Of a stretch of 45,499 nt of DNA, positions 9,710 through 36,196 are shown piece by piece. The stretch's first letter is position 1; every line of letters starts with the position of its first letter. The notes beneath the pieces were generated by a model that saw only the letters and a list, made by a program, of their open reading frames with translations, searched no databases and was not told the DNA's origin. Made by a program: the position numbers and the translations under genes. The DNA is from an uncultured beta proteobacterium (lineage in GTDB: Bacteria > Pseudomonadota > Gammaproteobacteria > Burkholderiales > Burkholderiaceae_C), in NCBI GenBank assembly GCA_903945325.1, contig CAJAVE010000136.1, positions 1 to 45,499 of the forward strand, read 5' to 3'.

Positions 9710-11057
9710 CTTTTGGCGTAAGCGCCAATCCTGGCAAAGCCTGACGAACCCGGTGCGCCGGAAACCCAATAGAAAATACCGAGCCTTTTCCCGGCACACT
9801 TTCAATAGTAAGTTCTGCACCGTGCCGCTGGGATACATGCTTGACAATGGCCAGACCGAGCCCTGTTCCACCGGTATCACGAGACCGGCTACGGTCCACA
9901 CGGTAAAAGCGCTCTGTCAAGCGTGGAATGTGTTCAATCGCAATGCCAGGGCCTTGATCCCGAACCTGAAACACCGCATTGCCCTCGGATTGCAAGCTGA
10001 ATTCCACCTCAATTCGGCGACCCACCGGGGTGTAACGAATCGCATTGCTGATCAAATTGAACAAGGCACTGTGCAGTTCGGTCGAAGAACCTGAGATTTC
10101 GCATCCTGTCACGCGTTCAAACACCAGATCATGCGGCTGCACAGACAAAACTCGAGAAAGGTCTTGGGCGTCTTGCTCACACTGCCGCATTAGCAGGTCA
10201 ACCGAGACCCAATCATGCACGGAGGGCAATGGACTGCCCTCCAGTCGAGACAGTGTCAACAAGTCACTGACCAGCGTTTGCATACGCTGTGCCTGTTGCG
10301 ACATCAAACCCAAATAGCGTTGACGCTCCTGTTCATTCAGTGACAGGGTTTGCAAGGTTTCTACAAAACCGGCGAGCACCGTCAACGGTGTGCGTATTTC
10401 GTGAGAGACATTGGCGACAAAGTCCCTTCGCATGGCCTCGGCCTGTTCGACCGCCGTGATGTCACGCGACAATAACAAAACACGCCCCTCGCCATAGGGA
10501 TGCATGTGAACCGACAGCTTCACCGGCTTTGAGGCATTGCTTTCACGACCCGGCATGGTGGTGTCATGCATGAAATTCCTGGCAGCAAGGTACGCAGTAA
10601 AGCGCGGGTCGCGCACCAGATTGCCAATATGCTGCAGCATGTCGCGTCGCGCATCAAATCCGAAATGTCCGGCCGCTGTCTGATTGAACCATTCGATGCG
10701 CGCGTCCGAATCAAGCAGCACTACTCCGTTGGGTGAAGCCTGCAAGGCAGCAAGAAAGTCTTCCAGCCGATTGCCACTCTCTACCGCAAGTCGATTGCTC
10801 GCACGCAGCATGCGGCGCACTCTGTCGTATGCCTCCCCCCACAAACCGTTTCCCAAAGACATATCGGCGCTGGCCCCCAGCCGCAACCAGCGCAGTAAGC
10901 GAAGTCCACGCATACAGTCCATCGCGAACCATGCAAAGCCACCGGCTAGGGCGAATGACAGCGTGAAAACCCACTCTTCCCCTTCCTTGGCCACAAACCA
11001 ACCCAGGCCAGCAGTACAAGCCTGACACAACACAAGGGTTATGAGCCGCCAAAGCAT
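9696..11057 (-). CDS. phoR: phosphate regulon sensor histidine kinase PhoR
   Basis: Inner-membrane sensor kinase (453 aa) that phosphorylates PhoB when phosphate uptake through PstSCAB falls. Two N-terminal hydrophobic segments (about 3-22 and 30-47) have almost no periplasmic loop, as in PhoR. A PAS domain lies at about 100-190 (SPNGVVLLD). The kinase core has the H-box SHEIRTPL with His219, an N-box NLISNAIRYT, G1 DQGPGI and G2 GGTGLGLAIV. It is the last gene of the pst-pho operon, 18 bases after phoB. Its final codons overlap the end of the convergent membrane glycosyltransferase gene by 14 bases. Confidence 0.95.
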   Translation of the reverse strand: MLWRLITLVLCQACTAGLGWFVAKEGEEWVFTLSFALAGGFAWFAMDCMRGLRLLRWLRLGASADMSLGNGLWGEAYDRVRRMLRASNRLAVESGNRLEDFLAALQASPNGVVLLDSDARIEWFNQTAAGHFGFDARRDMLQHIGNLVRDPRFTAYLAARNFMHDTTMPGRESNASKPVKLSVHMHPYGEGRVLLLSRDITAVEQAEAMRRDFVANVSHEIRTPLTVLAGFVETLQTLSLNEQERQRYLGLMSQQAQRMQTLVSDLLTLSRLEGSPLPSVHDWVSVDLLMRQCEQDAQDLSRVLSVQPHDLVFERVTGCEISGSSTELHSALFNLISNAIRYTPVGRRIEVEFSLQSEGNAVFQVRDQGPGIAIEHIPRLTERFYRVDRSRSRDTGGTGLGLAIVKHVSQRHGAELTIESVPGKGSVFSIGFPAHRVRQALPGLALTPKVSFV

Positions 11058-11075: not shown

Positions 11076-11807
11076 CTACGAGCTGGCTTTCTCTGCCATT
11101 GCGCTCACTGCAGCGGGTGCCGGAGTGACTGTCAAACGGTAGCCAGCACCGCGCACCGTCTCAACCATGGACCCAGCCTGAGCCAGCGCTTCGCGCAAGC
11201 GCTTTACGTGAACGTCTACCGTACGCTCTTCAATATATACATGGTCGCCCCACACTTTGTCCAGCAACTGCGCGCGGCTATGAACCCGTTCTGCGTGGCC
11301 CATAAAATAATGCAACAACTTGAACTCGGTAGGACCGAGCTTCAACGGACGTTCTTCGAACGACACGCGGTGGGTCGTGGGGTCCAGCACCAAAGCGCCT
11401 ATCGTCAACACCTCGCCGGCCTGCTCAGGAGTACGGCGGCGCAACACAGCCCGAATACGCGCCAGCAGTTCCTTGGTTGAAAACGGCTTGGCAATGTAAT
11501 CGTCTGCCCCGGCGTCCAAGCCAGCAACGCGGTCCGCTTCATCACCACGGGCAGTCAACATAATCAGTGGAACCGACTGGGTTCTCGGGTCCGCACGCCA
11601 GCGCTTGGCCAAGGTCAGTCCGCTTTCGCCGGGCAACATCCAGTCCAGCAGAATCAAATCCGGCAAGCCAGCATCCAGATCACGTTGCGCTGTGGCACTG
11701 TCCATTGCCCAAATGGGTCTGAAACCGTTGTGCCTCAAATTGACCGCAATGAGTTCCGCTATAGCTGACTCATCCTCGACCACTAGCACGGAAGGCATGG
11801 TTCTCAT
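11076..11807 (-). CDS. phoB: phosphate regulon response regulator PhoB
   Basis: DNA-binding response regulator of the OmpR family that activates Pho-box promoters, 243 aa. Receiver domain with acidic pocket (Glu11, Asp12), phosphoacceptor Asp55 (LLDWMLPG), Thr85 and Lys107 (AKPF). The C-terminal winged helix has the recognition-helix region ERTVDVHVKRLR and ends in GAGYRL. The start at 11807 overlaps the phoU stop (ATGA), indicating coupling; Met4 (11798) is an alternative start. The tail after GAGYRL is longer than in E. coli PhoB. PhoB presumably binds the Pho boxes described at 16357, 16459 and 31132. Confidence 0.96.
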   Translation of the reverse strand: MRTMPSVLVVEDESAIAELIAVNLRHNGFRPIWAMDSATAQRDLDAGLPDLILLDWMLPGESGLTLAKRWRADPRTQSVPLIMLTARGDEADRVAGLDAGADDYIAKPFSTKELLARIRAVLRRRTPEQAGEVLTIGALVLDPTTHRVSFEERPLKLGPTEFKLLHYFMGHAERVHSRAQLLDKVWGDHVYIEERTVDVHVKRLREALAQAGSMVETVRGAGYRLTVTPAPAAVSAMAEKASS

Positions 11808-12514: not shown

Positions 12515-13294
12515 CTATCCGAAACGGCCAGTGATGTAATCTTCAGTTTCCTTGCGTGTGGGCTTGAAAAACATCTGCTCCGTTGAGCCAAACTCCACCA
12601 GGTCGCCAAGGTACATATAGGCCGTGTAATCGCTGCAACGGGCGGCCTGCTGCATATTGTGGGTGACGATGACAACGGTGTAATCGTTCTTGAGTTCCAC
12701 AATCAACTCCTCCACCTTTGCAGTCGAGATGGGATCCAGTGCAGAGCAGGGCTCATCCAGCAGCAACACTTCGGGCTTGATCGCAATACCACGGGCGATG
12801 CAAAGACGCTGTTGCTGTCCGCCAGACAGGCTGGAGCCGTTCTGCTGCAACTTGTCCTTGACTTCGGTCCACAAGGCAGACTTTCGCAGTGCCCATTCGA
12901 CGCGCTCTTCCATGTCGGTGGCGCTGAGCGATTCAAACAACTTCACGCCAAAAGCGATGTTGTCAAAAATAGACATGGGAAACGGAGTGGGCTTCTGGAA
13001 CACCATACCCACTTTGGCACGCAGCAATGCGACATCCTCCTTGCTCTTCAACAGGTTTTCACCGTCGAGCATGATCTCACCCTCTGCCCGCTGCTCTGGA
13101 TACAGCTCAAACATTCGGTTAAAGACCCGAAGCAGGGTGGACTTGCCACAGCCCGATGGACCAATGAAGGCAGTTACCTTGTTTTCAGGAATCTCAAGAT
13201 TGATCCCCTTGAGCGCATGGAACTTGCCATAGTAAAAATTCAGATCCTTGACAGCGATCTTGGTTTGCTCGGGAGCCGTAGAAGTGTTCAGCAT
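12515..13294 (-). CDS. pstB: phosphate ABC transporter ATP-binding protein PstB
   Basis: ATPase of the high-affinity phosphate importer, 259 aa. Walker [10 protein letters not shown] (45-53), Q-loop in [16 protein letters not shown] signature LSGGQQQRL, Walker [14 protein letters not shown] and the switch histidine in VTHNMQQA. The KPTPFP stretch is characteristic of PstB. Preceded by pstA with a 37-base gap and followed by phoU. Confidence 0.97.
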
Positions 13295-13331
13295 GAAATA
13301 TTACCCAAAATAGTGACTGCAATGAAAAAAA

Positions 13332-14192
13332 TCAAATCTTGTTGCGAGTCAGCACACGCGCCAAAATATTCAAACCCAGCACCGCAGCAGTAATGATGAA
13401 GACACCAGCCCATGCCAGTTTCTGCCAGTTTTCATAGGGACTCATTGCAAACTTGAAAATCGTTACCGGCAGGCTGGCCATGGGCTCGCTCAGACTGCTG
13501 GTCCAGAACTGATTGCTCAGCGCGGTGAACAGCAAAGGAGCCGTCTCACCCGCAATACGGGCAACAGCAAGCAATACCCCAGTGATGACGCCGGTTCTGG
13601 CTGCCTTGAGCGTGATACTCAAAATGACCTTCCACTTGGGAGCACCCAGCGCATAGGCGGCTTCACGCAAACCAGGTGGAACCAATTGCAGCATGTTCTC
13701 AGTTGTCCGAATCACCACTGGAATGACTAGCAGTGACAACGCAATGACACCTGCGTAGCCTGAGAATGACTTGAACCGCGAGACCACCACCGCATACACA
13801 AACAGGCCAATGACGATGGAAGGCGCAGACAACAGTATGTCGTTAACAAAACGGGTGACAGATGCAAGCCAGCTCTTGGTATCGAACTCTGCCAAATAAA
13901 TGCCCGCCATCACGCCAATGGGCGTGCCCAATCCCGTCGCCAGCATCACCATCACAAACGATCCATAGATCGCGTTGGCCAGACCGCCTTCGTCGTTTGG
14001 CGGCGGTGTCATCTGGGTAAAAGTAGCAACCGAGAGTCCGCCAATGCCCAGCAAAATCGTTTCCCACAGGATCCAGAACAGCCAAAACAACCCAAAAGAC
14101 ATCGCAGCCAAGGCCATGCCTGTGGCCAATTGATTGACGCGCTTGCGTGATGCGAACTTGGCGGCACGCAGTTCGTAGGCGGTAGCACTCAT
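13332..14192 (-). CDS. pstA: phosphate ABC transporter permease PstA
   Basis: Inner-membrane permease subunit, 286 aa with about six transmembrane helices. It contains the EAA-type loop that contacts PstB ([16 protein letters not shown]) in the latter half, and conserved PstA features such as [11 protein letters not shown] and APSIVIGLF. The start overlaps the pstC stop (ATGA). Confidence 0.95.
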
Positions 14193-15220
14193 GTTTTGGC
14201 TCCCTCGTTTTTGCGCAATTGTGCCAGCAGCAGTTTGGAAAGAGACAAGATCACAAACGTGATGAAGAACAGAACCAGGCCCAAGTACATCAACGAAGCC
14301 TGGTGAAGCCCTTCGCCCGCTTCAGCGAATTCATTGGCCAAAGCGGAAGTGATACTGTTGGCTGCCTGAAAGAGGCTCAATGAATCGAGTTGGTTGAAAT
14401 TGCCAATTACGAAGGTCACTGCCATGGTTTCGCCAATGGCCCGCCCTAAACCCAACATAATGCCGCCGATGACACCGGATTTGGTATAGGGCAAAACCAC
14501 CTTGGTAACAACTTCCCAAGTGGTGGCTCCCAATCCATACGCTGATTCCTTCAGCAAGGGTGGAGTCACTTCAAACACGTCGCGCATCACCGCTGCAATG
14601 AATGGAATGATCATGATTGCCAAAATGATCCCGGCCGACAAGATGCCAATGCCTACCGGCGGACCAGACACAAATGCCCCCAGGTAGGGAACACCTGCAA
14701 ACGCGGCCTGCAGCGGCTGCTGCACGTACGTTGCCAGCACCGGCCCAAAAACCAGCAGACCCCACATGCCATAGACGATGGAAGGCACTGCAGCCAGCAA
14801 TTCAATGGCGGTGCCCAGCGGCCGCTTGAGCCACGCCGGTGACAGTTCAGTCAAAAACAAAGCGATCCCAAAACTCACTGGAACCGCAATCAGCAGGGCA
14901 ATGAAAGAAGTTGCCAGTGTTCCGTAAATCATCACAAGACCGCCAAACTCTTCTTTGACGGGATCCCATGTCGTGCTGGTCAAGAAGCCAAACCCATACT
15001 TGTCAATGGCCGGCCAGGCGCTGATGGTCAGTGAGGCCAGGATTGCAACCAGCATTCCCAGAGTGATGAGCGCCGCGCCTTTGGCCATCCAGCCAAAAAT
15101 GCGGTCAGCCAGAGGGCCCGAGCGGGCCTTTTTGACAGGAGGAGGTTGGATCATTGCGCGAACCGACTGAGTTGCAGGTGGTTTGGACGAAAAGTCGCCA
15201 TTAGCCAGTGTAGATGACAT
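14189..15220 (-). CDS. pstC: phosphate ABC transporter permease PstC
   Basis: Second permease subunit, 343 aa, with an extended cytoplasmic N-terminus (proline- and lysine-rich), about six membrane helices and the EAA loop [27 protein letters not shown] and [10 protein letters not shown] are typical PstC motifs. The start is ATG 15220 because GGAAAG lies six bases upstream; a TTG at 15238 in the same frame has no comparable ribosome site. Follows pstS after 41 bases. Confidence 0.95.
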
Positions 15221-15261
15221 GTTTGACTTTCCGTACAAACCCGAGTTGATTGCGAAGCAGC

Positions 15262-16305
15262 CTACTTGAACGCTATCGGCTTGCCAGAACCGTCCTTGAT
15301 TTCACCCCAGGACTTTTGAATGGTGACAATCACTGGCGCTGGCATGGGAACGTAGTCCAGGTCAGACGCAGACTTGCCACCATTGGTAAACGCCCAGTTA
15401 AAGAACTTCAACACCTCAGTTGCATTGGCAGGCTTATCCTGCTTGATGTGCATCAAGATGAAAGTGGCAGTAGAAATGGGCCAGGTGCCTTTGCCAGGCT
15501 GATCGGTAATCAACTGATAAAACGATTTATTCCAGTCTGCACCGGCAGCAGCAGCCTTGAATGCGTCATCATCGGGCGCCACGAATTGACCATCTTTGTT
15601 TTTCAACAAGGTGTAGGTCATTTTGTTTTGCTTCACGTAAGAGTACTCTACGTAACCAATGGAGTTGGGCAGGCGAGCCACAAATGCGGCAACACCTTCA
15701 TTGCCCTTGCCACCGGCGCCCACTGGCCAATTCACGGCAGTGCCCTCGCCCACTTTGGCTTTCCACTCGGGATGCACGCGGCTAAGGTAGTTGGTGAAGT
15801 TGAACGTAGTGCCGGAGCCGTCTGCGCGGCGAACCGGGGCAATGGCGGCATCAGGCAATGCCAATCCTGGGTTCAGAGCCTTGAGCGCCGCATCATTCCA
15901 ACGTGTGATTTTGCCAAGGTAAATGTCGCCCAAGGTTTGGCTGTCGAGCTTCATTTGTCCAGGCGCAATACCCTTGACGTTAATGACAGGCACCGTGCCA
16001 CCGATAACCGCAGGAAACTGCACTTGACCCTTGGACTTCAACACCTCATCGGTCTGGGGCATGTCGGAAGCACCAAAGTCTACGGTTTTGGAGTCGATTT
16101 GCTTAATACCGCCACCCGAGCCAATCGACTGGTAGTTCACTTTCACGCCAGTTGCTTTGTTGTATTCAGAAGCCCACTTCGAATAAATGGGCGCAGGAAA
16201 CGACGCACCGGCACCGGTAATTTCCTGGGCACCTGCAACGCCAGCAAAACCCAACGTAGAAGCCGCAGCCAATGAAAGAAGCGGAAATTTGGAAGCAATT
16301 CGCAT
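15262..16305 (-). CDS. pstS: periplasmic phosphate-binding protein PstS
   Basis: Secreted phosphate receptor of the Pst importer, 347 aa. It has a Sec signal peptide (1-26, cleavage after AGA before QE), then [16 protein letters not shown], the standard PstS start, and the phosphate-contacting SIGSGGGI and [12 protein letters not shown]. First gene of the pst-pho operon, directly downstream of a Pho box. AAAGG precedes the ATG by seven bases. Confidence 0.97.
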
Positions 16306-16356: not shown

Positions 16357-16375
16357 TATGACAAGTTTGTGACAA
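16357..16375 (-). promoter_or_regulatory. Pho box in front of pstS
   Basis: On the minus strand two direct repeats, TTGTCAC and TTGTCAT, start 11 bases apart with AAAC between. This matches the PhoB site pattern (CTGTCAT repeats at 11-base spacing, A/T-rich spacer). The box ends about 50 bases before the pstS start codon. Confidence 0.88.
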
Positions 16376-16458: not shown

Positions 16459-16476
16459 TTGTCATATTCTTGTCAC
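16459..16476 (+). promoter_or_regulatory. Pho box in front of the fasciclin lipoprotein gene
   Basis: On the plus strand TTGTCAT and TTGTCAC start 11 bases apart, separated by ATTC. It points away from the pstS box and lies 49 bases before the start of the fasciclin-domain gene, predicting PhoB activation of that gene. Confidence 0.8.
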
Positions 16477-17043: not shown

Positions 17044-17063
17044 AAGCCCCCTGGCGGGGGCTT
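17044..17063 (+). terminator. possible terminator after the fasciclin gene
   Basis: AAGCCCCC and GGGGGCTT form a perfect 8-base stem with a TGGC loop, 17 bases after the stop codon. The following T-run is only two or three bases, so it may be a weak terminator or an mRNA-stabilising hairpin. Confidence 0.5.
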
Positions 17064-17120
17064 TGGACCCAGTATTTATAGTAAAAAGTGCCACTAGACC
17101 ACGTCATCATTGCGCTACCA

Positions 17121-17137
17121 GCTATAACTTTTATAGC
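17121..17137 (+). repeat. GCTAT-N7-ATAGC palindromic repeat, copy 3
   Basis: Intergenic 17-base palindrome between the fasciclin gene and the next start codon. Nearly identical to copy 4 (middle AACTTTT against AACATCT) with the same flanks CAG or CCAG before and ATAGCA at the end. Confidence 0.6.
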
Positions 17138-17188
17138 ATCTTCTTGACCTTGCTCAGCAAGCGTCTCTACTGGCCAAGGACCCCAATC

Positions 17189-18334
17189 ATGACCCACGCA
17201 CACAATCCCGGTCGGCGACGATCGATTGCCACACTGATCGGGCTTACCGCAGCAAGCGCGTTGCCTGCGTGGGCACAGTCTTCCAAAAGTGCTGCGGGTG
17301 CACGCGCCGTAACGGTCGCGCAGGTTGTCGATATGTCCACCAGCCAGATTGATGTCTCCAAAGACTTTCTGGTCGGCGCACGCACTGCCTGGCAGGAAAT
17401 AAACACAAAAGGCGGGGTGTCAGGGACACCCATCAGGCATTTGGTTCTCGAAGTAGACGGCAGCGCAGCCAGTCTGCGCACCGCCATTGACACTGTCAAA
17501 GTCGAACCCCACTGTATTGCTCTGTTTGGCACTGCCGGTGACCGGGCAGCGTCCCAGTTGACGGCCCTGCTGCGCCGCGAAATCCCGGACTTGCCCCATG
17601 CCGCACCCTGGCTGCAAAGCCTGGATGCCATTGCTTCGTCAAACACCTTCCCCATTTTTGCGTCGCGCCAGGAGCAAATTGCCCATGCCATCAAATCGCT
17701 GTCGGTCATGGGAATCACCAACGTTGGAGCCGTTTACGGGTCAACCGCCGAATACGCGGCCTACCGTGGCGATCTGGAACAAATTGCCCGGACGCTGAAA
17801 CTCGCCATTGTTCCCTACCACACCACAGGTGATTTGCGTGATTTGGCCCAAACACTCACACCTGAAAGCCCACGCGTTCTGCTGTTTGTCGGCGGTACAC
17901 CAGAAATGGCTCGCTTTGCTCAAGGAGTAGAAAAGCAAGCCGCTCAGCGCTATTTGATTGCCATGTCCGATGTGAATCTGCAAAGCATCCAGCAATTGGG
18001 TGCATCACGCTTCACGCCCATGATTGCAACCCAGGTTGTCCCGATGGTCAACTCGAACCTGCCGATCGTGCGAGCCTACCGCAGCGCCCTGGGGCGTCTG
18101 TTCGACGAGCCGCCAACACCCCATAGCCTGGCTGGCTACCTATCTGCGCGATATACCTTTGAAGTTCTGCAGGGCATTGACGGCTCACTGACCCGCAGTG
18201 CGGCACTCCAGGCATTCACGCGTCGTAACCCGGTCGACCTGGGCGGCTTTCGCATCGCTCCTGACGCCAAAGGCCAGGGAACAGCCTTTGTGACCCAAAG
18301 CATGGTGGCGGCCGATGGTCGCTTGGTCGGGTGA
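17189..18334 (+). CDS. ABC transporter substrate-binding protein, type 1 periplasmic (Leu/Ile/Val-like) fold
   Basis: Secreted ligand-binding protein, 381 aa. The N-terminus has arginines followed by a hydrophobic stretch and an AWAQ cleavage site (about residue 28). The mature part resembles periplasmic branched-chain amino acid receptors (DVSKDFLVGARTAWQEIN, ALFGTAGDRA, GITNVGAVYG). No transporter genes accompany it, so the ligand is open and it may act as a sensor. Start ATG 17189 was chosen for AAGGA eight bases upstream and because it begins the signal peptide; a longer frame from 17063 is not supported. It ends 89 bases before ppx in the same direction. Confidence 0.82.
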   Translation: MTHAHNPGRRRSIATLIGLTAASALPAWAQSSKSAAGARAVTVAQVVDMSTSQIDVSKDFLVGARTAWQEINTKGGVSGTPIRHLVLEVDGSAASLRTAIDTVKVEPHCIALFGTAGDRAASQLTALLRREIPDLPHAAPWLQSLDAIASSNTFPIFASRQEQIAHAIKSLSVMGITNVGAVYGSTAEYAAYRGDLEQIARTLKLAIVPYHTTGDLRDLAQTLTPESPRVLLFVGGTPEMARFAQGVEKQAAQRYLIAMSDVNLQSIQQLGASRFTPMIATQVVPMVNSNLPIVRAYRSALGRLFDEPPTPHSLAGYLSARYTFEVLQGIDGSLTRSAALQAFTRRNPVDLGGFRIAPDAKGQGTAFVTQSMVAADGRLVG

Positions 18335-18423
18335 GCCAGAAACCATCGACCCGGCGCACGGCGAACGGCCGGTGCTATGCTCAGACGATATCTCCATTAC
18401 CTAGAAAAAAAGAACCAATACCC

Positions 18424-19926
18424 ATGGGAACTCGCCTGGCCGCTGTGGACTTGGGATCCAACAGCTTTCGTCTGGAAATTGGACGCATTGAACACGGTGC
18501 CTTTCAACGCACTGAATACCTGAAAGAAACCGTACGCCAGGGTGGTGGTCTCGATGAAGACCGCAACCTGACGACCGCCGCCATGCAAAATGGCTGGGAC
18601 TGTCTGGCCCGTTTTGGCGAGCGATTGGCCGGGTTCCAGCCCCGCGAAGTGCGGGCTGTAGCTACGCAAACTCTCCGTGAAGCCCGCAACCGCGACGTAT
18701 TCCTGCAACGCGCCAATGCGATTTTGGGTTTTCCCATCAGCGTCATCTCGGGGCGCGAAGAAGCGCGACTCATCTACCAGGGTGTGGCACAGATGCTGCC
18801 GAGGTCCGATGAGCGCCGCATTGTGATTGACATTGGCGGGCGCTCTACTGAACTCATATTGGGTCAGGGGCCAACTCCGGTTGTGATGGAATCGTTTCGG
18901 GTGGGAAGTATTGCCTGGTCCAATCGCTACTTCCCGGACGGGCAATTCACGAAAAAGTCTTTCGCCATTGCGGAAATTGCGGCCAAAGCCGTGATGGATG
19001 AGGCACTTGACGCCTACCACCCCAGTCTATGGGACGCGGCCTACGGCTCTGCTGGAACGGTCAGTGCCATCGCTGACGTGCTGGTTGCCTGCGGGTGGCC
19101 AGCCGGAAGCCTCACCCAAGACGGACTGGACTGGCTGATGGACAAATTGATCTCCGCGCAAAGCGTTGATCGATTGAAATTGCCCGGGATGCGCGAAGAC
19201 CGCAAGGCCATCATTGGTGGAGGCGTCAGCATCGTGCGCGCCCTTTTCAGTCTGCTGGGAATTGCCACTTTGCACCAGGCTGCAGGTGGACTGCGCCATG
19301 GCCTGATCTGTGACCTGCTGGGCTCGGGCAGCAATGACGATGACTTGAGGACCAAGACGGTAGAGCGCCTGGCGAGCAAGTTTGGAGTGGATGCCACCCA
19401 CGGCGAACGGGTGGGCAAGGTCGCGACCCAGTTATTTGACCAACTGATGGCATCAACGGGCAATGCAACGACTGCGCAGGGCACCCGCCATTTGCGCAAA
19501 TTGAATTGGGCTGCCCAGCTGCATGAAATTGGAAGCCATATTTCACACAGCGACTACCACAAACACGGTGCCTACATCCTGGACAATGCAGACGCCATGG
19601 GCTTTTCACTGTCGGAGATGCACCGTTTGAGCCTCTTGGTCTTGGGGCACCGGGGCAAACTGCGCAAAGTTGAGCCAGCGCTGGAAGAAGGCGATCTGGT
19701 ACCACAACTGATCGCGCTGCGGCTGGCGGTTATTCTGAGCCATGCCCGTCGCGACCCGGACTTGACCGGGCTGACCCTGACCCGCACGGACGCTACAGGG
19801 CGCAGTATGCAACTGCGCTGCCGTGCAGGCTGGGCTGAGGCCTTTCCGCAGTCTGCTTACCTGTTGCGCGAAGAAGTGCAGGCTTGGCAAAAAACGGCCT
19901 GGTCGCTGGAAGTGGTGGGCTGCTAG
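18424..19926 (+). CDS. ppx: exopolyphosphatase (Ppx/GppA family)
   Basis: Releases orthophosphate from polyphosphate chain ends (some family members also hydrolyse pppGpp), 500 aa. Actin-like ATPase fold: AAVDLGSNSFRLEIG (phosphate loop, Asp9), SGREEARLIY with catalytic Glu112/113, and VIDIGGRSTELILG (phosphate 2 loop, about 134-147). The C-terminal half has an HD-like region (LHEIGSHISHSDYHKHG). Start ATG 18424 fits the family start; an upstream frame adds unrelated residues. Together with ppk1 at 28989 it gives the region both polyphosphate synthesis and breakdown. Confidence 0.92.
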   Translation: MGTRLAAVDLGSNSFRLEIGRIEHGAFQRTEYLKETVRQGGGLDEDRNLTTAAMQNGWDCLARFGERLAGFQPREVRAVATQTLREARNRDVFLQRANAILGFPISVISGREEARLIYQGVAQMLPRSDERRIVIDIGGRSTELILGQGPTPVVMESFRVGSIAWSNRYFPDGQFTKKSFAIAEIAAKAVMDEALDAYHPSLWDAAYGSAGTVSAIADVLVACGWPAGSLTQDGLDWLMDKLISAQSVDRLKLPGMREDRKAIIGGGVSIVRALFSLLGIATLHQAAGGLRHGLICDLLGSGSNDDDLRTKTVERLASKFGVDATHGERVGKVATQLFDQLMASTGNATTAQGTRHLRKLNWAAQLHEIGSHISHSDYHKHGAYILDNADAMGFSLSEMHRLSLLVLGHRGKLRKVEPALEEGDLVPQLIALRLAVILSHARRDPDLTGLTLTRTDATGRSMQLRCRAGWAEAFPQSAYLLREEVQAWQKTAWSLEVVGC

Positions 19927-28512: not shown

Positions 28513-28974
28513 CTACATCAAGTCAGGTGTCTGAACCGTCACTACAACGGCTTGCCCGGTGGCTTCGCGCTCGCGGTAGCGCAGCCACCACACTGCGCCC
28601 TTCTTGACCGCACATTCTGAAGCGCTCAAGCCCAGCAGATTTGAAATAGTCTGGCCCAATGTGGGTTGATGGCCCACTACCAGCACGCAACCTTTGGCGT
28701 GCGGCCATTGAACCAATTCAAGCAATTGCTCCGCCGTGCCCATAGGCGAAATTGCAGGATTGAACTTGAACTTACGTCCCAATGCCAGCGCTGTTTGTTC
28801 GGACCGCCTTGCCGGGCTAACCCAAATGCGCGTGCTGTCGGGCAATTGACGATCCAACCAGGCAGCCATCCGTGCGGCCTGTTTTTCTCCGCGCGAAGTC
28901 AGTGCGCGGGCCATATCGTCACCGTCCGGTGCGCCTTCTACCCCCTCCGCGTGCCGCCACAAGATAAGGTCCAT
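28513..28974 (-). CDS. sixA: phosphohistidine phosphatase SixA
   Basis: Histidine-phosphatase-superfamily protein, 153 aa. RHA motif with catalytic His8 (ILWRHAEG), the second arginine/SPARRSEQTA stretch, Glu near 82 and the second histidine in VVGHQPTLG. SixA dephosphorylates phosphohistidine on phosphotransfer proteins in other bacteria; the partner here is unknown. It follows ppk1 by 14 bases and is likely in the same transcript. Confidence 0.88.
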   Translation of the reverse strand: MDLILWRHAEGVEGAPDGDDMARALTSRGEKQAARMAAWLDRQLPDSTRIWVSPARRSEQTALALGRKFKFNPAISPMGTAEQLLELVQWPHAKGCVLVVGHQPTLGQTISNLLGLSASECAVKKGAVWWLRYREREATGQAVVVTVQTPDLM

Positions 28975-28988: not shown

Positions 28989-31082
28989 TCAGGTTTTCTC
29001 GTTGTCCGCATAACGAGCCATGAGGGCGGCCTGAGCGCCGTGCACTGCGGTCTTGCCGTCGCCTTTAAACCGTGTGTAGGTGCCATCTGCACCCAGGTCC
29101 CAGGCGTCCACACCATCGTGCAGATAGGCCACCAAACACTCGTCAACCAACCTCCGGAGCTGCACCGGGTCAGTCACCGGCCAGGCCAGCTCGACCCGGC
29201 GCACCATGTTGCGGTTCATCCAGTCTGCGCTGGACAGGTAAAGGTCTTCAACCTCCCCTTCACGGAAATAGAAAACCCGTGAGTGCTCCAGAAACCGCCC
29301 GATCACTGAGCGCACGCGGATGTTGTCGGTGTACCCCGGCACCTGCGCTGGCAGCATGCAGGCCCCACGCACAATCAGATCGATTTTGACGCCGTTGACA
29401 CCGGCCCGCATCAGGCTGTGTATCAGTGCCTCGTCCGTCAGCGAATTCATTTTGGCAACGATCCGCGTGTCCTTGCCGCGACTGGCTGCCACGCCCAGGG
29501 CATCAATTCTGGCGATCAAGTTTCGGTGCAGGTGAAATGGTGCAAACCACAGTTTGCGCAAGCGGGGCAAGCGGCTTTGGCTTGCCAGGTGCACAAAAAC
29601 ATGCTCCATATCGGTAGTCAAAGAGGTGTCGGCCGTGATGTGACTCACGTCGGTATACAGGCGGGCTGTCCGAGGGTTGTAGTTGCCAGTCGACAGATGG
29701 CCGTATCGCTTGAGGGACTTGCCCTCGCGCCGGGTGATCAGCATCATCTTGGCGTGGGTTTTGAGGCCTACCACGCCATACAGTACCTGTGCACCAATGG
29801 ACTCCAGCATTTCGGCCCAATTGATATTCGCTTCTTCATCAAAACGGGCTTTGAGCTCGACGACTACCGTAACTTCTTTGCCCAGACGCACGGCCTCGCG
29901 CAACAGGTCCATCAACTCTGAGTCGGGGCCAGTACGGTAAATAGTTTGCTTGATAGCCAATACATTGGGGTCATTAACGGCTTCGCGCAAAAGCCCCAGC
30001 ACCCCATCAAAACTCTCGAATGGCTGATGGATCAGGATGTCGCCCTGCTTCAATTGCTCAAAAATGCTCTGCCCAGTCGCCATTTGCGCGGGGTAAGACG
30101 CCCTGTAGGGCGTAAAACATAAGTCAGGGCGATCGACCAAGTCAATCAATTGTGTCAAGCGCACCAGGTTCACAGGCCCAGCAACCCGGTAAAGGGCTTT
30201 CGCGGGCAGGTCAAACTGCTTGAGCAAAAAGTCAGACAAATACTCGGAACAACCTGCCGAAACCTCCAGGCGAACGGCCTGGCCGTAATGTCGGTGCACA
30301 AGCCCCTGGCGCAGCGCCATGCGCAGGTTTTTGACATCGTCCTCATCCACGGCCAAATCAGAGTGCCGGGTCACCCGGAACTGTGAAAATTGGCCCACCG
30401 TACGCCCCGCAAACAATCCATCAAGATGCGCCCGGATGATGCTGGAAAGTGAGACAAAAAGCGCTCGATCACCGGAGACCTTGGCGGGCATGCGGATCAA
30501 CCGCGGCAGCACACGCGGCACTTTCACGATGGCAATTTCGTTCTCGCGGCCAAAGGCATCATGCCCGCTCAGTCGCACAATGAAGTTCAACGATTTGTTG
30601 GCAACCTGCGGGAACGGGTGCGAAGGGTCCAGCCCCACGGGGATCAGCAGCGGGCGCACTTCGCGCTCGAAATATTGTCTGACCCACTGGCGCTGCGCCG
30701 CGTTTCGCTCTCCATGGGAAATGACTTTCATGCCCATCTGCTCAAATGCAGGCATGAGCTTCTCGTTGTAAAGCGTGTATTGCCGCTCTACGATGGCATT
30801 GACGGATGCCGCCAAGCGCTCGAACGACCCGATAGAGAATAGGCCCTTGCGTTCCTTGGCCTGGTAGGCGATCAGATGCGGCTCCGCCCGCACTTCAAAA
30901 AACTCGTCCAGATTGGAGGAAACGATGCATAGGTAGCGCAAGCGCTCCAGCAAAGGAACGTCATCGCGTACAGCCCAATCGAGCACCCGCTCGTTGAATG
31001 CCAAAAGACTATGGTCGCGATCCAGTAAATCAGGAGCCACCTGGGGAGGTTGCAACATTGGATTGCGAAGAGATGACAACAT
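28989..31082 (-). CDS. ppk1: polyphosphate kinase 1
   Basis: Makes inorganic polyphosphate reversibly from ATP at the membrane, about 697 aa. Visible: N-terminal helical domain (DRDHSLLAFNERVLDWA), SSNLDEFFEVRA, the catalytic HAKMMLI with His443 (autophosphorylated histidine), KARFDEEANI, and the second catalytic region with GRFLEHSRVFYF and SSADWMNRN. The frame is open far upstream to 31238, but sequence before 31082 is not PPK-like. ATG 31082 or ATG 31058 are the likely starts; neither has a strong ribosome site. A Pho box lies 50 bases ahead, inside the preceding glycosyltransferase gene. Confidence 0.95.
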   Translation of the reverse strand: MLSSLRNPMLQPPQVAPDLLDRDHSLLAFNERVLDWAVRDDVPLLERLRYLCIVSSNLDEFFEVRAEPHLIAYQAKERKGLFSIGSFERLAASVNAIVERQYTLYNEKLMPAFEQMGMKVISHGERNAAQRQWVRQYFEREVRPLLIPVGLDPSHPFPQVANKSLNFIVRLSGHDAFGRENEIAIVKVPRVLPRLIRMPAKVSGDRALFVSLSSIIRAHLDGLFAGRTVGQFSQFRVTRHSDLAVDEDDVKNLRMALRQGLVHRHYGQAVRLEVSAGCSEYLSDFLLKQFDLPAKALYRVAGPVNLVRLTQLIDLVDRPDLCFTPYRASYPAQMATGQSIFEQLKQGDILIHQPFESFDGVLGLLREAVNDPNVLAIKQTIYRTGPDSELMDLLREAVRLGKEVTVVVELKARFDEEANINWAEMLESIGAQVLYGVVGLKTHAKMMLITRREGKSLKRYGHLSTGNYNPRTARLYTDVSHITADTSLTTDMEHVFVHLASQSRLPRLRKLWFAPFHLHRNLIARIDALGVAASRGKDTRIVAKMNSLTDEALIHSLMRAGVNGVKIDLIVRGACMLPAQVPGYTDNIRVRSVIGRFLEHSRVFYFREGEVEDLYLSSADWMNRNMVRRVELAWPVTDPVQLRRLVDECLVAYLHDGVDAWDLGADGTYTRFKGDGKTAVHGAQAALMARYADNEKT

Positions 31083-31120: not shown

Positions 31121-32203
31121 TTACGATTTTGGTGACAATTGTGTGACAGTAATGTGAGGCAGCGGCCGCGCATCCAACGCAATACCTGTGCGTGCAGGAA
31201 CCAGGTGGCTTACAAACAACTGCGAGGCATGTGCCCACCCAAATGTCTGGGCACGTTGTCGTGCGGCATGACGCGGGACCGCCAACGCCGCATACCAGGC
31301 GCTGACAAGGTCGTCGTGCAGCATGCCACCCGCAGGGGGCGATCCCACCACTTCCAGAGGTCCTTCTACCGGGTAGGCGGCAACTGGCGTGCCGCTGGCC
31401 ATAGCCTCCAGCATCACCAGTCCAAACGTTTCAGATCGACTGGGCATGACAAAGACGTCGGCCGCCGCATAGACCCTTGCCAGAGTATTGCGGGGCAGCA
31501 CACCCAACCAGCGCACGTGCGGAAAACGCTGGCGCAGACCCGCCTCTAACGGTCCGACGCCACAGACGACCTTGGTACCCGGCACGTCCAAATTGAGGAA
31601 AGCTTCGATATTCTTCTCGTAGGAAACACGCCCCACGAAAAGCGAAACCGGTCGTGCCAGCACACCCAGCGGCGCATACACCTGCGGCTCCTCGTGGTAA
31701 CCGAACAACTGCATATCGACACCATGCGTCCAACTGCGAAGGTTGCGGAACCCGCGATCACGCAGCATGCTCAACACACTGGGCGTAGGCACCAGAACGC
31801 CTGAAGAGTGCCGGTGAAAGTGCCTAAAAAGCGCATATCCCATCCATAAGGGTACTTTGAGTGCCGCCTTCAGTACCTCTGGGAAACGGGTGTGATAGGA
31901 CGTCGTGTATGCCAACCCGCGCTTAGCGCAATACCCTCTGGCCGCCCACCCCAGGGGGCCTTCCGTAGCCAGGTGAATGGCATCCGGCGCCATGGCATCG
32001 AGGCAGCGCGCCAGGGTTTTAGCGGGTCGCACCGCCAAGTCAATGCCGGCATAACCGGGACAAGGGCGCGTATCAAACATGCCTGGGTGTACGACCTCCA
32101 CCTGATGCCCTAGCACCTGCATTTCGCGCACCAGTTCTACCAGTGTGGTCACAACCCCATTGATCTGCGGTTGCCAAGCATCTGTCACCAACGCCAACTT
32201 CAT
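31121..32203 (-). CDS. GT4 lipid glycosyltransferase, Agt/SQD2-like
   Basis: Soluble or membrane-associated glycosyltransferase of GT-B fold, 360 aa. N-terminal MKLALVTDAWQPQINGVV, THLATEGPLGW-type motif (TEGPLGW at 80-86), SYHTRFP (102-108), LFVGRVSYEKN (188-198) and the EX7E motif Glu258/Glu266 (SETFGLVMLEA). This pattern is that of SQD2 and the Agt enzymes that add sugar to diacylglycerol. Pairing with the PlcP-like gene supports glycolipid synthesis from diacylglycerol in phosphate starvation; the sugar donor is unknown. ATG 32203 has AGGAGG seven bases upstream and overlaps the previous stop (ATGA). The end of the gene contains the ppk1 Pho box. Confidence 0.85.
   Translation of the reverse strand: MKLALVTDAWQPQINGVVTTLVELVREMQVLGHQVEVVHPGMFDTRPCPGYAGIDLAVRPAKTLARCLDAMAPDAIHLATEGPLGWAARGYCAKRGLAYTTSYHTRFPEVLKAALKVPLWMGYALFRHFHRHSSGVLVPTPSVLSMLRDRGFRNLRSWTHGVDMQLFGYHEEPQVYAPLGVLARPVSLFVGRVSYEKNIEAFLNLDVPGTKVVCGVGPLEAGLRQRFPHVRWLGVLPRNTLARVYAAADVFVMPSRSETFGLVMLEAMASGTPVAAYPVEGPLEVVGSPPAGGMLHDDLVSAWYAALAVPRHAARQRAQTFGWAHASQLFVSHLVPARTGIALDARPLPHITVTQLSPKS
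31132..31149 (-). promoter_or_regulatory. Pho box of ppk1 inside the glycosyltransferase 3' end
   Basis: Minus-strand CTGTCAC and TTGTCAC start 11 bases apart (ACAA between). The sequence encodes TVTQLS of the glycosyltransferase C-terminus, so code and binding site overlap. A TAAACAAT stretch lies about 9-16 bases beyond, suited to a -10 element. The box ends 50 bases before the proposed ppk1 start. Confidence 0.8.
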
Positions 32204-33081
32204 GCCAATGCCTCCTGCGGTGCATGAACCAGCGCCGTGCTGGCTTCTTCGCCATTCCAGTAGACCAACTCCAATCGCCCGTCCTGGTGCTCGACCAGAG
32301 CGCTGCGGCTTTCCACCCAGTCGCCATCGTTGCAATACAGGGTACCCTGAATATCGCGCATCTCGGCACGGTGAATGTGCCCGCAGACCACCCCATCATG
32401 CCCTTGGGTACGTGCGGCTTGCGCCACCGCCACTTCAAAGTCGGTCACGTAATTGAGTGCCGATTTAACCTTGTGCTTGAGGTAGGCCGATAGCGACCAG
32501 TATGGCAAACCCAGGCGGGCACGCAGGGTGTTGAGATAGCGGTTGAGCTTGAGGGTGAATTCATACAGATTGTCTCCCAAAAAGGCCAGCCACTTGGCAC
32601 ACTGGATGACACCGTCAAAGTAGTCACCATGCGTGACCCACAGACGACGGCCATCGGCCGTGGTGTGTATTGCATCTTCACGGACCTCAATGCCACCAAA
32701 CTCATGGCCCAAAAAGCCACGCGCAAACTCATCATGGTTGCCGGGAATGAACACGACCTTGCAGCCCTTGCGCGCGCGGCGCAGAAGCTTTTGCACAACA
32801 TCGTTGTGGGACTGGGGCCAGTACCAGCGTCTGCGCAACTGCCAGCCATCAACAATGTCGCCCACCAGATACAAGTGCTCACTGGAGTGGGCTTTGAGAA
32901 AGCCCAGTAAAGCCTGCGCCTGGCAGCCCGCTGTGCCCAAGTGAATGTCGGAGATAAAGATGGCCCGGTAGCACCTCCCGCGATGGTCGTCTTCGTCATC
33001 GTGAGCGCCATCACCAGTGGGTTGGGCACCGTCCAGCATGCCCCGCATGAGCGGCGCAAAGGCATCGGGGCCGGCACGCAT
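32200..33081 (-). CDS. PlcP-like metallophosphoesterase (LpxH-related family)
   Basis: Calcineurin-like dimetal phosphoesterase, 293 aa from ATG 33081. Metal ligands: Asp45 and His47 (SDIHLG), Asp75 (VGDIVDGW), Asn115-His116 (PGNHDE), His151 (THGDYFD), His235 and His237 (GHIHRAE). The family is often labelled UDP-2,3-diacylglucosamine diphosphatase. Context points instead to PlcP, the phospholipase C that strips phospholipid headgroups to diacylglycerol in phosphate-starved rhizobia and marine bacteria: it lies between an OlsB-like and an Agt-like gene. The start overlaps the previous stop as TGATG; the frame continues upstream to 33174, but coupling favours 33081. The first 35 residues are a divergent low-complexity tail. 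Confidence 0.85.
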   Translation of the reverse strand: MRAGPDAFAPLMRGMLDGAQPTGDGAHDDEDDHRGRCYRAIFISDIHLGTAGCQAQALLGFLKAHSSEHLYLVGDIVDGWQLRRRWYWPQSHNDVVQKLLRRARKGCKVVFIPGNHDEFARGFLGHEFGGIEVREDAIHTTADGRRLWVTHGDYFDGVIQCAKWLAFLGDNLYEFTLKLNRYLNTLRARLGLPYWSLSAYLKHKVKSALNYVTDFEVAVAQAARTQGHDGVVCGHIHRAEMRDIQGTLYCNDGDWVESRSALVEHQDGRLELVYWNGEEASTALVHAPQEALA

Positions 33082-33932
33082 CAGGCCCCCAGAAAGTGTT
33101 TGCGGTAGCGCGACGGCAAATCGGCGATGCGCATCATCATCGGTAAGTCTGCCGAGTTGAAATCCGGGTCCCACGCGGGTGGCCCCAGCACCTTGGCCCC
33201 CAGGCGCAGGTAGCCCTTGATGAGCGCTGGCGGCTCCACTTCCAGCGATGCGTCCAACTGCTCAACCGGAAGCGGCAGGCGGGGCCGTACGTGGTATTCA
33301 ATCGGCGCCAGATGGGTAGCTTGGACCTTGCGCCAGATGCTGGCCGCCATATCGCCACTGGCGACACCGTTGTGCAGCATGGGTATGCTCGCACAACCAA
33401 TCATGGTGTCGAGCTGGTTGCGCACCATGAAGTCGCCCAAGGCCCCCCACAACGCCATGATCACGCCGCCGTGGCGGTGGTCCTTGTGCACGCAACTGCG
33501 TCCCAACTCCACCATGCGGTCGCGCAGGCTGCGCAAGCGGGTCAGGTCAAACTCGGTGTCGCTGTAGGTGCTGCCCACACGCTGTGCTTGCACCGGTGTC
33601 AGTACACGGTAAGTGCCGATGACCTGCCCACTGGCCTCGTCGATCACAAGCAAGTGCTCACAAAAATTGTCAAACAGGTCAATATCGTGACCTGGTATCG
33701 ATGTACTCAGACGTGCACCCATTTCTCCCGCAAACACATCATGGCGCAACCGCTGCGCGGCGCGCACTTCGTCCTGGTGCTGTGCCCAGGTGACCCGTAT
33801 AGGGGCTCGCTCCTGCGCAACCGTCTGAATCACAGATTGACGCCCGTTACCAAAGGCGATTGTCGTGTCGTGTGCTGTAGCCACAGTGACCGACAGGTTG
33901 GATCCCATTGCAATAGACGCTTTCATACTCAT
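33081..33932 (-). CDS. OlsB-like GNAT N-acyltransferase (putative ornithine lipid synthesis)
   Basis: Protein of 283 aa in the GNAT-related family of OlsB, which transfers 3-hydroxyacyl groups from acyl carrier protein to the alpha-amino group of ornithine. Seen: RLRHDVFAGEMGARL (about 60), FDNFCEHLLVID, QVIGTYRVLTP, MVELGRSCVHKDHRHGGVIMALW (acyl-CoA/ACP-binding loop) and IGCASIPM. Lyso-ornithine lipid would need an OlsA acyltransferase, which I do not see here. The start overlaps the upstream stop (ATGA); Met3 at 33926 has GGAG seven bases ahead and may be the real start. Acyl-homoserine-lactone synthase-like proteins share this fold, but the operon argues for lipid work. Confidence 0.8.
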   Translation of the reverse strand: MSMKASIAMGSNLSVTVATAHDTTIAFGNGRQSVIQTVAQERAPIRVTWAQHQDEVRAAQRLRHDVFAGEMGARLSTSIPGHDIDLFDNFCEHLLVIDEASGQVIGTYRVLTPVQAQRVGSTYSDTEFDLTRLRSLRDRMVELGRSCVHKDHRHGGVIMALWGALGDFMVRNQLDTMIGCASIPMLHNGVASGDMAASIWRKVQATHLAPIEYHVRPRLPLPVEQLDASLEVEPPALIKGYLRLGAKVLGPPAWDPDFNSADLPMMMRIADLPSRYRKHFLGA

Positions 33933-34159
33933 GCTCCGTTTTGGGCTGACAAATTCAAATCACCAGAACTAGGGTTGAGCGCATCCAGCCAAGGTTGGGT
34001 GCCTGCCCTGAACCGCAAACCACCCGGAGTGTTTGCCATTGCGCGCGCAGTGCAACGCAAGATGCGCAAACACTGCTGCTCCAGGTCGTGGGTCAAACGG
34101 TGGGGCGTAGGCACCTTGGCCTGGCTGAACTGTGTTCGAGTGTGCAATTGCGTTCCCAT
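33929..34159 (-). CDS. small unknown protein heading the lipid-remodelling gene string (76 aa)
   Basis: I do not recognise a family. Mostly polar, with QCLRILRC in the middle; no signal peptide or membrane segment. It is supported by GGAG five bases before ATG 34159 and by the ATGA overlap of its stop with the OlsB-like gene. It could be a genuine small protein or a leader that couples translation into olsB. An overlapping 92-codon frame at 33969-34247 has no such support. Confidence 0.6.
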   Translation of the reverse strand: MGTQLHTRTQFSQAKVPTPHRLTHDLEQQCLRILRCTARAMANTPGGLRFRAGTQPWLDALNPSSGDLNLSAQNGA

Positions 34160-34206
34160 TTTTCTCTCCGTCGCATTTGTTGTATTGCAATTTTGAAAGA
34201 GTTAGA

Positions 34207-34222
34207 TGACGTGCACACGTCA
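34207..34222. promoter_or_regulatory. palindrome TGACGTG-CA-CACGTCA, possible operator
   Basis: Two perfect 7-base arms with a 2-base centre, located 48-63 bases before the start of the 76-aa gene and just downstream of the Pho-box-like site. The size and symmetry are those of a dimeric repressor or activator site. Confidence 0.45.
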
Positions 34223-34227
34223 GTTCA

Positions 34228-34245
34228 ATGGCAGTTTCATGACAC
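34228..34245 (-). promoter_or_regulatory. Pho-box-like site in front of the lipid-remodelling genes
   Basis: Minus-strand GTGTCAT and CTGCCAT start 11 bases apart, separated by GAAA; each differs from CTGTCAT at one position. It lies 69-86 bases before the first gene of the string. The fit to the PhoB pattern and the gene content agree. Confidence 0.55.
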
Positions 34246-34687: not shown

Positions 34688-36196
34688 ATGAACAGCGCCA
34701 GACAATCTGCAACACAATTCACAGAGGTTGAACTCAAGCTGGCCTTGCCGTCTGTGGATCCACGCACGCTGGAACAGCATTTGGCTCGCCTGCCTGCACT
34801 GGTGCGGCGAAAGGCGACCCGTGAAAAGCTGTACAACACCTACTACGATACACCTGACGACGCGCTGAATAGTCAACGAATCGCTCTGCGAATACGCCGC
34901 GTGGGCAGCGTGGATCAGCCGTTGTGGCTACAAACCCTGAAAATGGGCGGAAGCGGGCTCTCGGCATTGAGCCAGCGTGGCGAGTGGGAGGCAACGCTAC
35001 CCAACTCAGATCTACAACCGGACTTGCTAAAAGCCACGCCATGGTCGCAACTGGACCCGGATGGCGCCCTCTTTCACTCTCTCGCAGCGCGCTTCACCAC
35101 CGATTTCACACGTACCCGCTGGACCGTACGCCACCGAGATGGCAGCGTGATCGAGGTGGCGCTCGACCAGGGACAGATCGTGGCCGGCGAACACAACGCG
35201 GCCATTTGTGAGCTGGAGCTCGAACTCAAAGCCGGCCGACCAGCGACCCTCTTTGCCATCGCCCGACAGGTTGCGAGTGCAGTTGCTGTGTTGCCACTCG
35301 GTGCCAGTAAAGCACAACGTGGCTTTGCCCTGGCACACAACATGCTAGGCCAGCCCCTGCGGGCACAACCACACGTGCTAACGCCGGAGATGCATGTGCC
35401 AGAAGTGGCAACGCAGGTATTGCGGGAGATGTTCAATCATTTCAGCAGCAATCTGCACACGCTGCTCACATCGGATGATCCCGAAGTAGTACACCAAGCC
35501 AGGGTTGGATGGCGGCGTTTCAAAGCAGCACTCACGCTCTTCAAAAAGACACCTCTGGTTCAAGCGATTCCGCCCTGGCAAGGGCTGAAATCACTGCTGA
35601 AAGAACTGGGCCACTTGCGCGATCTGGAGGTGGCCAGTCTGGAGACCTTGCCCATGCTTGCCAACGCCTATGTGGACGGCAGCAACAAGCGACAAGAGCA
35701 TTGGCGAGCCCTGCAACACTCACTGGCGCAAACAGCAGATGAACAGCACAAACGTGTGCGCAGCGCAATCAACAACCCTGTGACTGGAGCCACCCTGCTG
35801 GCCTTAACCGAGTGGCTGGAGAGCGACCAAGACCCTGGTGCGTCCTGCGTGATGGCCGCTGACAAAAATTGGACGTTGCGCCCGTGGGCCCGTCAGCATA
35901 TGGAGCGTTTGCGCGACCAATTGAAAACTACGCTGAAGAAATCATCAAAACCTGACAACCTTCACCATGCTCGTCTATTGGCCAAACGGCTTCGGTACGG
36001 CGTCGAAGCCTTACGAGCGGTGCTACCCAAACGATGCGCGCAACGCTGGCGACAGCAGGCGGCGCGTCTGCAAGGCTCCATCGGGGCAGATCGGGACCTA
36101 CAGCACGCACTGCGGCTTGCCAAGCGCCTGAAGGCACACTCCACGCTTCTGACGTTTCTGCGAGCAGTAGCCTTGGGACGAAGGCGTCCGCCCTAA
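34688..36196 (+). CDS. CYTH-CHAD protein (YgiF-like inorganic triphosphatase)
   Basis: Two-domain protein of 502 aa. The N-terminal CYTH/triphosphate-tunnel domain (about 10-215) has the EVELK signature (Glu13, Glu15, Lys17), YNTYYDTPD, ALRIRR and CELELEL, as in inorganic triphosphatases. The C-terminal CHAD domain (about 225-490) is helical with conserved His/Arg/Lys (VHQARVGWRRFKAAL, LRDLEV, HHARLLAKRLRYGVEAL, DRDLQ), a pattern known to bind polyphosphate. Probably hydrolyses triphosphate and docks on polyphosphate. Fits the nearby ppk1 and ppx. The ribosome site is weak; the N-terminal start is moderately certain. Confidence 0.88.
   Translation: MNSARQSATQFTEVELKLALPSVDPRTLEQHLARLPALVRRKATREKLYNTYYDTPDDALNSQRIALRIRRVGSVDQPLWLQTLKMGGSGLSALSQRGEWEATLPNSDLQPDLLKATPWSQLDPDGALFHSLAARFTTDFTRTRWTVRHRDGSVIEVALDQGQIVAGEHNAAICELELELKAGRPATLFAIARQVASAVAVLPLGASKAQRGFALAHNMLGQPLRAQPHVLTPEMHVPEVATQVLREMFNHFSSNLHTLLTSDDPEVVHQARVGWRRFKAALTLFKKTPLVQAIPPWQGLKSLLKELGHLRDLEVASLETLPMLANAYVDGSNKRQEHWRALQHSLAQTADEQHKRVRSAINNPVTGATLLALTEWLESDQDPGASCVMAADKNWTLRPWARQHMERLRDQLKTTLKKSSKPDNLHHARLLAKRLRYGVEALRAVLPKRCAQRWRQQAARLQGSIGADRDLQHALRLAKRLKAHSTLLTFLRAVALGRRRPP

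Follow-up and report, generated by a model that had tools for sequence, protein, structure and literature searches.

A candidate PhoB-controlled membrane lipid remodelling cassette adjoining ppk1 in an uncultured member of the Burkholderiales

Remodelling of membrane lipids at low phosphate is best known in rhizobia, marine bacteria, Pseudomonas and methanotrophs. Here we describe a cluster of genes on a 45,499 nt stretch of DNA from an uncultured beta proteobacterium of the Burkholderiales (the window: contig CAJAVE010000136.1 of assembly GCA_903945325.1, positions 1 to 45,499) which, judged by its gene families, gene order and predicted promoter sites, is very probably a PhoB-controlled membrane lipid remodelling operon. 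The cassette, p76-olsB-plcP-agt, occupies positions 31121-34159 of the minus strand and comprises four overlapping genes, followed by ppk1 and a sixA-like gene. The family-level identities of these genes (among them a phosphoesterase that is PlcP and not LpxH), their overlaps, their conserved order and the conserved Pho-box sequences are established below. A preliminary description of the same DNA had proposed lipid remodelling in response to phosphate starvation, and this proposal is supported by the placement of the PlcP protein, by the known pairing of plcP with agt elsewhere and by the predicted PhoB sites.

Organization of the cassette

The first gene of the cassette, p76 (33929-34159, minus strand, as are all genes of this cluster), encodes a small protein that matches no Pfam or NCBIfam family and overlaps by 4 bp the gene for an OlsB-like N-acyltransferase of 283 aa (33081-33932). 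The olsB stop codon and the plcP ATG share a single base at 33081 (TGATG), and plcP (32200-33081), encoding a metallophosphoesterase of the intracellular phospholipase C type (293 aa from the ATG), in turn overlaps agt by 4 bp (ATGA). From its ATG at 32203, agt (31121-32203) encodes a glycosyltransferase (GT) of family GT4 with 360 aa. The ATG of ppk1 (28989-31082; polyphosphate kinase 1, 697 aa from ATG 31082) lies 38 bp past the agt stop codon, and its product exceeds the cut-offs of both PPK1 models (TIGR03705, 854 bits against a cut-off of 466; NF003918, 1062 against 691). The sixA-like histidine phosphatase gene (28513-28974) comes next, with a product that narrowly misses the SixA cut-off (TIGR00249, 71.4 bits against 74.5). 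Overlapping OlsB-, PlcP- and Agt-like genes in one direction, with ppk1 and sixA next, had been reported in the preliminary description and all were found as stated. Gene starts were chosen from the overlaps between neighbours; longer open reading frames (ORFs) exist for plcP (324 aa from an upstream GTG) and agt (404 aa from an upstream TTG). Since the genome is 90% complete and in 394 contigs, statements below that a gene is the only copy apply to its assembled part.

Predicted Pho boxes precede the cassette and ppk1

A predicted tandem Pho box (34228-34245, minus strand; GTGTCAT GAAA CTGCCAT, then TGAA CTGACGT) starts 86 bp before p76 and matches 12 of 14 consensus positions. It forms a run of 7-bp half-sites with an 11-bp period, and similar position and period are seen in most p76-bearing relatives. 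A second predicted box lies within the 3' end of agt and precedes ppk1 (31132-31149, minus strand; CTGTCAC ACAA TTGTCAC). When the genome was searched with the pattern CTGTCAYN4YTGTCAY, the ppk1 box was one of two sites without a mismatch, and on the stricter scoring against the 14-position consensus it reaches 13. At no more than one mismatch the genome contains 12 sites, four of them in the 45-kb window: the one before ppk1, two upstream of pstS (16358-16375, minus strand, and 16459-16476, plus strand, each 12/14) and one inside pstA.

To compare relatives we used 60 loci of the window's family, hand-picked from the best-scoring plcP matches listed; the sample is non-random and leans to close relatives, and some of its stretches end early. 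Within 220 bp before ppk1, 27 of 44 loci carry a site that matches 12 or more of the 14 positions, and in the same distance before olsB sites scoring at least 11 and at least 12 are found in 23 and 9 of 43 loci, respectively. Extending the olsB region to 350 bp gives a site of at least 11 in 25 of 43 loci as against 4.1% in shuffles (first-order Markov samples rather than exact dinucleotide shuffles). For the positive control, pstS, all 18 of 18 loci carry a site scoring at least 11. Other regions score at this level as follows: sixA 0/40, pstC 0/16, w27961 0/21, gnat2 0/8, pstB 0/7, chad 0/2, ppx 2/34, glmM 2/20, folP 1/17, m14 2/7, GT 5/46 and plcP 11/60, with 1-11% in shuffles. Of 31 loci with plcP, GT and ppk1 in that order, 22 have a box of at least 12 in the region where GT ends and ppk1 begins; the start of this box falls within the GT coding sequence in 17 of the 22. 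Finally, among 17 p76 loci examined (the window's own included), 13 show a Pho box scoring at least 11 upstream of p76; its distance to the conserved core of the gene is 176 or 178 bp in 10 of the 13.

Several counts tell against control by PhoB. Sites with up to two mismatches number 129 in the whole genome and 99 for a reversed-pattern control, an enrichment so mild that weak Pho sites mean little alone. Of the eight sites that lie outside the window and have no more than one mismatch, seven fall in long ORFs and the eighth is intergenic on contig C22; the seven, which include the second perfect site (contig C154), look like chance occurrences. Real control regions reach 11 in 14 of 200 cases and 12 in 7 of 200. 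No site of at least 11 was found within 350 bp of olsB in 18 of 43 loci, although in three of the 18 such a site occurs at a greater distance, upstream of p76, and four of the 17 p76 loci have no Pho box, all four sharing a more divergent p76.

The simplest reading of the predicted sites is that two PhoB promoters serve the region, one for the lipid cassette and another, inside agt, for ppk1. Co-control of the lipid genes with polyphosphate synthesis, as previously suggested, holds to the extent that predicted Pho boxes stand before both the cassette and ppk1 and are kept in many relatives; it is better pictured as one regulator acting at two promoters than as a single transcript.

The gene order is a conserved family trait

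In the 60 family loci, olsB lies directly before plcP in 41 and a GT gene directly after plcP in 40; ppk1 is within the stretch in 44, and many relatives have sixA after ppk1. The unbroken order olsB-plcP-GT-ppk1 is found in 29. In 28 of the 31 loci with ordered plcP-GT-ppk1, plcP and GT overlap by 4 bp, given starts extrapolated from alignments. Because the order recurs in many genera and 28 of 31 loci keep the 4-bp overlap, the arrangement goes beyond chance. The preliminary description had considered the tight linkage unusual and had named a search for the same gene order in relatives as a check; that search found the order, and the linkage is instead a conserved trait of the family, at least in these hand-picked loci. 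In the order outside this family, 60 genomes have both plcP and olsB, and the two genes are within 10 kb of each other in 15, which span eight families and several arrangements.

Whether ppk1 adjoins the lipid genes for a functional reason is a separate matter. Its position could reflect inherited order within a large phosphate locus, a shared regulator being all that connects ppk1 functionally with the lipid genes, and we regard this as a serious contender although not as the favoured one. In favour of this reading, pst-pho genes and a ppx-type gene are present in the window as well, and 16 of the 60 family loci have no ppk1 within the stretch, some possibly owing to an early stretch end. Moreover, a 263 kb plasmid of Mitsuaria sp. 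7 (NZ_CP011515.1; L330) carries plcP, ppk1 and a ppx-type gene in that order at 4986-9769; its annotation places neither olsB nor agt within 5 kb of them. Against this stand the 29 of 60 loci in which olsB-plcP-agt-ppk1 is kept, and the predicted Pho boxes carried by both units make shared control, at least, likely.

The acyltransferase resembles OlsB

The window acyltransferase matches PF13444 with 119.4 bits and is the only PF13444 match found in the genome. It also aligns to two OlsB models almost from end to end, scoring 155.1 and 142.3 bits, and shares 32% identity with the OlsB of Sinorhizobium meliloti. Three observations weigh against an ornithine lipid function. The cut-offs of the OlsB models (350 and 320 bits, respectively) are missed widely; S. 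meliloti OlsB passes one of the OlsB models with 511.5 bits; and no OlsA gene is linked to the cassette. Six PF01553 genes are present in the genome, one of them encoding a 661-aa protein; among the other five, the best OlsA candidate, on contig C154, reaches 140.9 bits against a cut-off of 300. In the order, 108 of 150 genomes match OlsB and 0 of 150 reach the 350-bit cut-off, which is therefore not decisive; the model looks tuned to alphaproteobacteria, to judge from these two counts.

Ornithine is the likely substrate of the acyltransferase on this evidence. It is improbable, if conceivable, that lipid remodelling is real and that this enzyme makes another N-acyl amino acid lipid, from lysine or glutamine, instead of or besides ornithine lipid. 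Its scores below the OlsB cut-offs would fit such a role, and in Acinetobacter both lysine lipids and ornithine lipids are described as olsB-dependent in the available text of PMC11828411. The near full-length match to the OlsB models and the identity to S. meliloti OlsB argue for ornithine, as does the formation of ornithine lipids via the OlsBA pathway reported for Burkholderia in the available part of PMC7814305.

The phosphoesterase is of the PlcP type and not LpxH

The plcP product, which matches PF00149 and PF12850, contains the metallophosphoesterase motifs SDIHLG, GDIVDGW, GNHDE and GHIH in alignment; these we take to correspond to the motifs named DxH, GD, GNHD and GHxH. With the LpxH model NF003743 it scores 46.6 bits and does not reach the cut-off of 134, and a separate LpxH that does (229.5 bits) is encoded on contig C343 of the same genome. 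An 82-row tree sets its 16 LpxH rows apart with a Shimodaira-Hasegawa-like approximate likelihood ratio test (SH-aLRT) value of 100. After addition of the S. meliloti homologue and a named Mitsuaria sequence, a 41-row tree separates PlcP from LpxH with support of 100/100 and places the window protein on the PlcP side. The S. meliloti and Pseudomonas homologues group with the window phosphoesterase, which is 52% identical to the former over 248 residues. We infer from its family that the S. meliloti homologue is the characterised PlcP; its record name is UDP-2,3-diacylglucosamine diphosphatase. The plcP of Mitsuaria, also of the Burkholderiales, groups in the gene tree with genes of the window's family.

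Homologues of the phosphoesterase are found in 231 of 299 family, 95 of 150 order and 81 of 199 phylum genomes at E <= 0.001, some LpxH-level matches included. In the order and phylum sets, near full-length matches of the PlcP type score above 200 bits and those of the LpxH type below about 46, with a few fragments between.

By model scores and phylogeny, then, the phosphoesterase is of the PlcP type. The preliminary description would have been undone by clustering with LpxH in a genome with no other LpxH; the protein clusters with PlcP and the genome has another LpxH. That the protein is LpxH or an LpxH back-up, in a cluster that builds lipid A or surface sugars and whose GT4 enzyme acts on an envelope glycan, is very unlikely indeed: among curated models LpxH fits best, and it is the sole solved-structure match at E 0.01, and database records give such proteins the LpxH name, but the low score, the separate LpxH gene, the 100/100 split, the pairing with an Agt-type GT and the predicted Pho boxes all contradict it, and we reject it. 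Many PlcP-type proteins, that of S. meliloti included, carry this LpxH name in annotation, and the PlcP family is therefore hidden in databases.

The glycosyltransferase and its sugar supply

The agt product has GT4 domains (PF13439, PF00534 and PF13692) and its gene lies directly after plcP. As a query we used a GT that directly follows plcP in a Pseudomonas genome; it is not a characterised Agt, and its neighbouring plcP is 92-98% identical to that of the nearest named Pseudomonas among the best rows. The window GT was its best match in the window's own genome (270 bits, 47% identity), the next being a gene on contig C22 with 121 bits. Beyond the window's family, plcP is followed by a GT gene of this kind in 14 of 20 loci of the order and, outside the order, in 13 of 20 loci of the phylum, which fits the plcP-agt pairs described in the available portions of PMC4796936, PMC8528852 and PMC9239053. 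On domains and position the enzyme is of the Agt type.

Contig C22 of the same genome (L303, 3493-11960) bears a second phosphate-linked cluster. A UDP-glucose dehydrogenase, identified by Pfam, is encoded there and could make UDP-glucuronate for Agt. A Pho box (13/14) lies at 5973, downstream of the dehydrogenase gene, and starts 55 bp before the gene for a 203-aa protein that matches neither Pfam nor NCBIfam families; an Agt-related GT4 gene is nearby. The cluster also contains what we take to be a ppk2-like gene and an aminotransferase-like gene.

p76 is a lineage-specific small protein

A profile built from five p76 sequences has strong matches in 5 of 299 family genomes, from two genera, and, within the window's genus, in 13 of 100 genomes, of which many are incomplete; these counts omit six weak matches (two family, four genus) with E 4.7e-6 or worse. 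In 16 of the 17 loci olsB and plcP directly follow p76, and in the seventeenth (L320) the stretch stops 91 bp past the p76 stop codon. Over a 31-codon core, the mean proportion of nonsynonymous differences (pN) is 0.139 and that of synonymous differences (pS) 0.680, a ratio of 0.20, and pN is lower than pS in 136 of 136 pairs. The low pN/pS therefore indicates that the p76 core is under purifying selection. No Pfam or NCBIfam family matches p76 at E 0.001, and nothing convincing was found in PDB sequences (best E 0.24) or in plasmids. Structure prediction gives mainly one long helix at residues 19-43, with low confidence (mean predicted local distance difference test, pLDDT, of 59). One genome (G642) has two different p76-olsB-plcP places on two contigs (L323 and L328), either a true duplication or assembly contamination.

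The first gene, encoding 76 aa, had been listed as unknown. By its conserved core, pN/pS ratio and fixed place before olsB and plcP, p76 is a real, lineage-specific small protein. We offer as speculation, more likely to be wrong than right, that p76 founds a PhoB-induced family working with the lipid switch, for example by bringing PlcP or OlsB to the membrane or by restraining the switch, and that it stands first because its dose sets phospholipid breakdown.

The surrounding phosphate locus

The window encodes the predicted regulator pair phoB (11076-11807) and phoR (9696-11057) on the minus strand, with products above the cut-offs of TIGR02154 and TIGR02966, and the phosphate uptake genes pstS-pstC-pstA-pstB (12515-16305, minus strand). 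The pstS and pstB products exceed NCBIfam cut-offs; pstC and pstA are presumed from position. A ppx/gppA-type exopolyphosphatase gene (18331-19926, plus strand) matches NF008260 (357 bits, cut-off 624) and TIGR03706 (298 bits, cut-off 307), in both cases below the cut-off. Further genes we take, by sequence and position, to be phoU, glmM, folP and ftsH. As the window carries the pst-pho genes and a ppx-type gene, the cassette lies in a large phosphate locus. Between the pstS boxes and ppx, an ORF at 17063-18334 (plus strand) has no NCBIfam match. The divergent neighbour of the cassette encodes a CYTH-CHAD protein (34688-36196, plus strand; PF01928 and PF05235); this gene is present in 2 of 60 family loci and lies near p76 in several relatives of the same genus. 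A scan for intrinsic promoters and terminators gave nothing exceeding shuffles.

A model for the response to low phosphate

From these sequence features we infer the substrates and products of the enzymes, the binding of PhoB, induction and any role of p76. At low phosphate, the PhoR-PhoB pair encoded in the window would activate the promoter with the tandem Pho box before p76. PlcP would split phospholipids into diacylglycerol and a phosphoalcohol, and Agt would add glucose and/or glucuronic acid to the diacylglycerol, giving phosphorus-free glycolipids. OlsB would acylate ornithine and so start ornithine lipid synthesis, to be completed by an OlsA encoded elsewhere. The second Pho box, in the end of agt, would drive ppk1, so that polyphosphate capacity follows the same signal via its own promoter.

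The cluster suggests that a lipid-remodelling programme is widespread in a large family of the Burkholderiales, that one promoter serves the glycolipid and the ornithine-lipid route together, and that the gene for polyphosphate kinase, directly adjoining the lipid genes, answers to the same regulator. With all of this in one locus, it becomes testable whether the stripping of phosphate from membranes and the banking of polyphosphate are one coordinated response. In addition, p76 adds a small phosphate-linked protein and a clear starting place for a search for function.

Comparison with known systems

Parts of the cassette have precedents. Pairs of plcP and agt with a Pho box are known (available text of PMC4796936 and PMC8528852) and make glycolipid (the same sources and PMC9239053), and in Burkholderia sensu lato a predicted Pho box stands before olsB (PMC7814305, likewise as available). 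A close parallel is plcP-agt1 of P. aeruginosa (PA3219-PA3218), in which, by the published description available to us in PMC8528852, a PlcP-type gene lies directly before an Agt-type GT4 gene with a Pho box before the pair. That pair differs, on the same description, in having no olsB, ppk1 or p76 with it and a second Agt elsewhere. A plcP-agt pair is also present on the P. aeruginosa plasmids NZ_CP137508.1, CP075839.1 and NZ_CP042268.1, where the proteins are 55% and 47% identical to those of the window and are annotated as UDP-2,3-diacylglucosamine diphosphatase and glycosyltransferase.

In Pelagibacter, Erythrobacter and Methylosinus, plcP is followed by agt and glycolipids are made at low phosphate (available portions of PMC4796936 and PMC9239053), but the main text of PMC4796936 never names olsB or polyphosphate. 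For Methylosinus, moreover, the locus tags of olsA and olsB are numerically far apart, and the genes are not reported with plcP in the text available. Burkholderia sensu lato, which belongs to the same taxonomic order, has an OlsB homologue with a predicted Pho box, and membrane lipids of Paraburkholderia xenovorans changed at low phosphate, both according to the accessible part of PMC7814305; PlcP, in contrast, is unnamed in its main text. S. meliloti has a phosphoesterase in the same clade (52%) and OlsB homology of 32%, but its plcP and olsB are about 1.6 Mb apart (CP090106), and the gene table of the record, itself incomplete, lists no agt within 3 kb of plcP. The record CP090106.1 is labelled pSymB yet is 3.7 Mb and chromosome-sized, so that the label may be wrong.

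We found no description of olsB, plcP, agt and ppk1 together in the open-licence literature, which is weak evidence of novelty; three papers there mention PlcP, Agt and OlsB jointly. The enzymes and their regulation are of known kinds; what looks new is their combination and its conservation in the family, together with p76 and the position of the ppk1 Pho box within agt.

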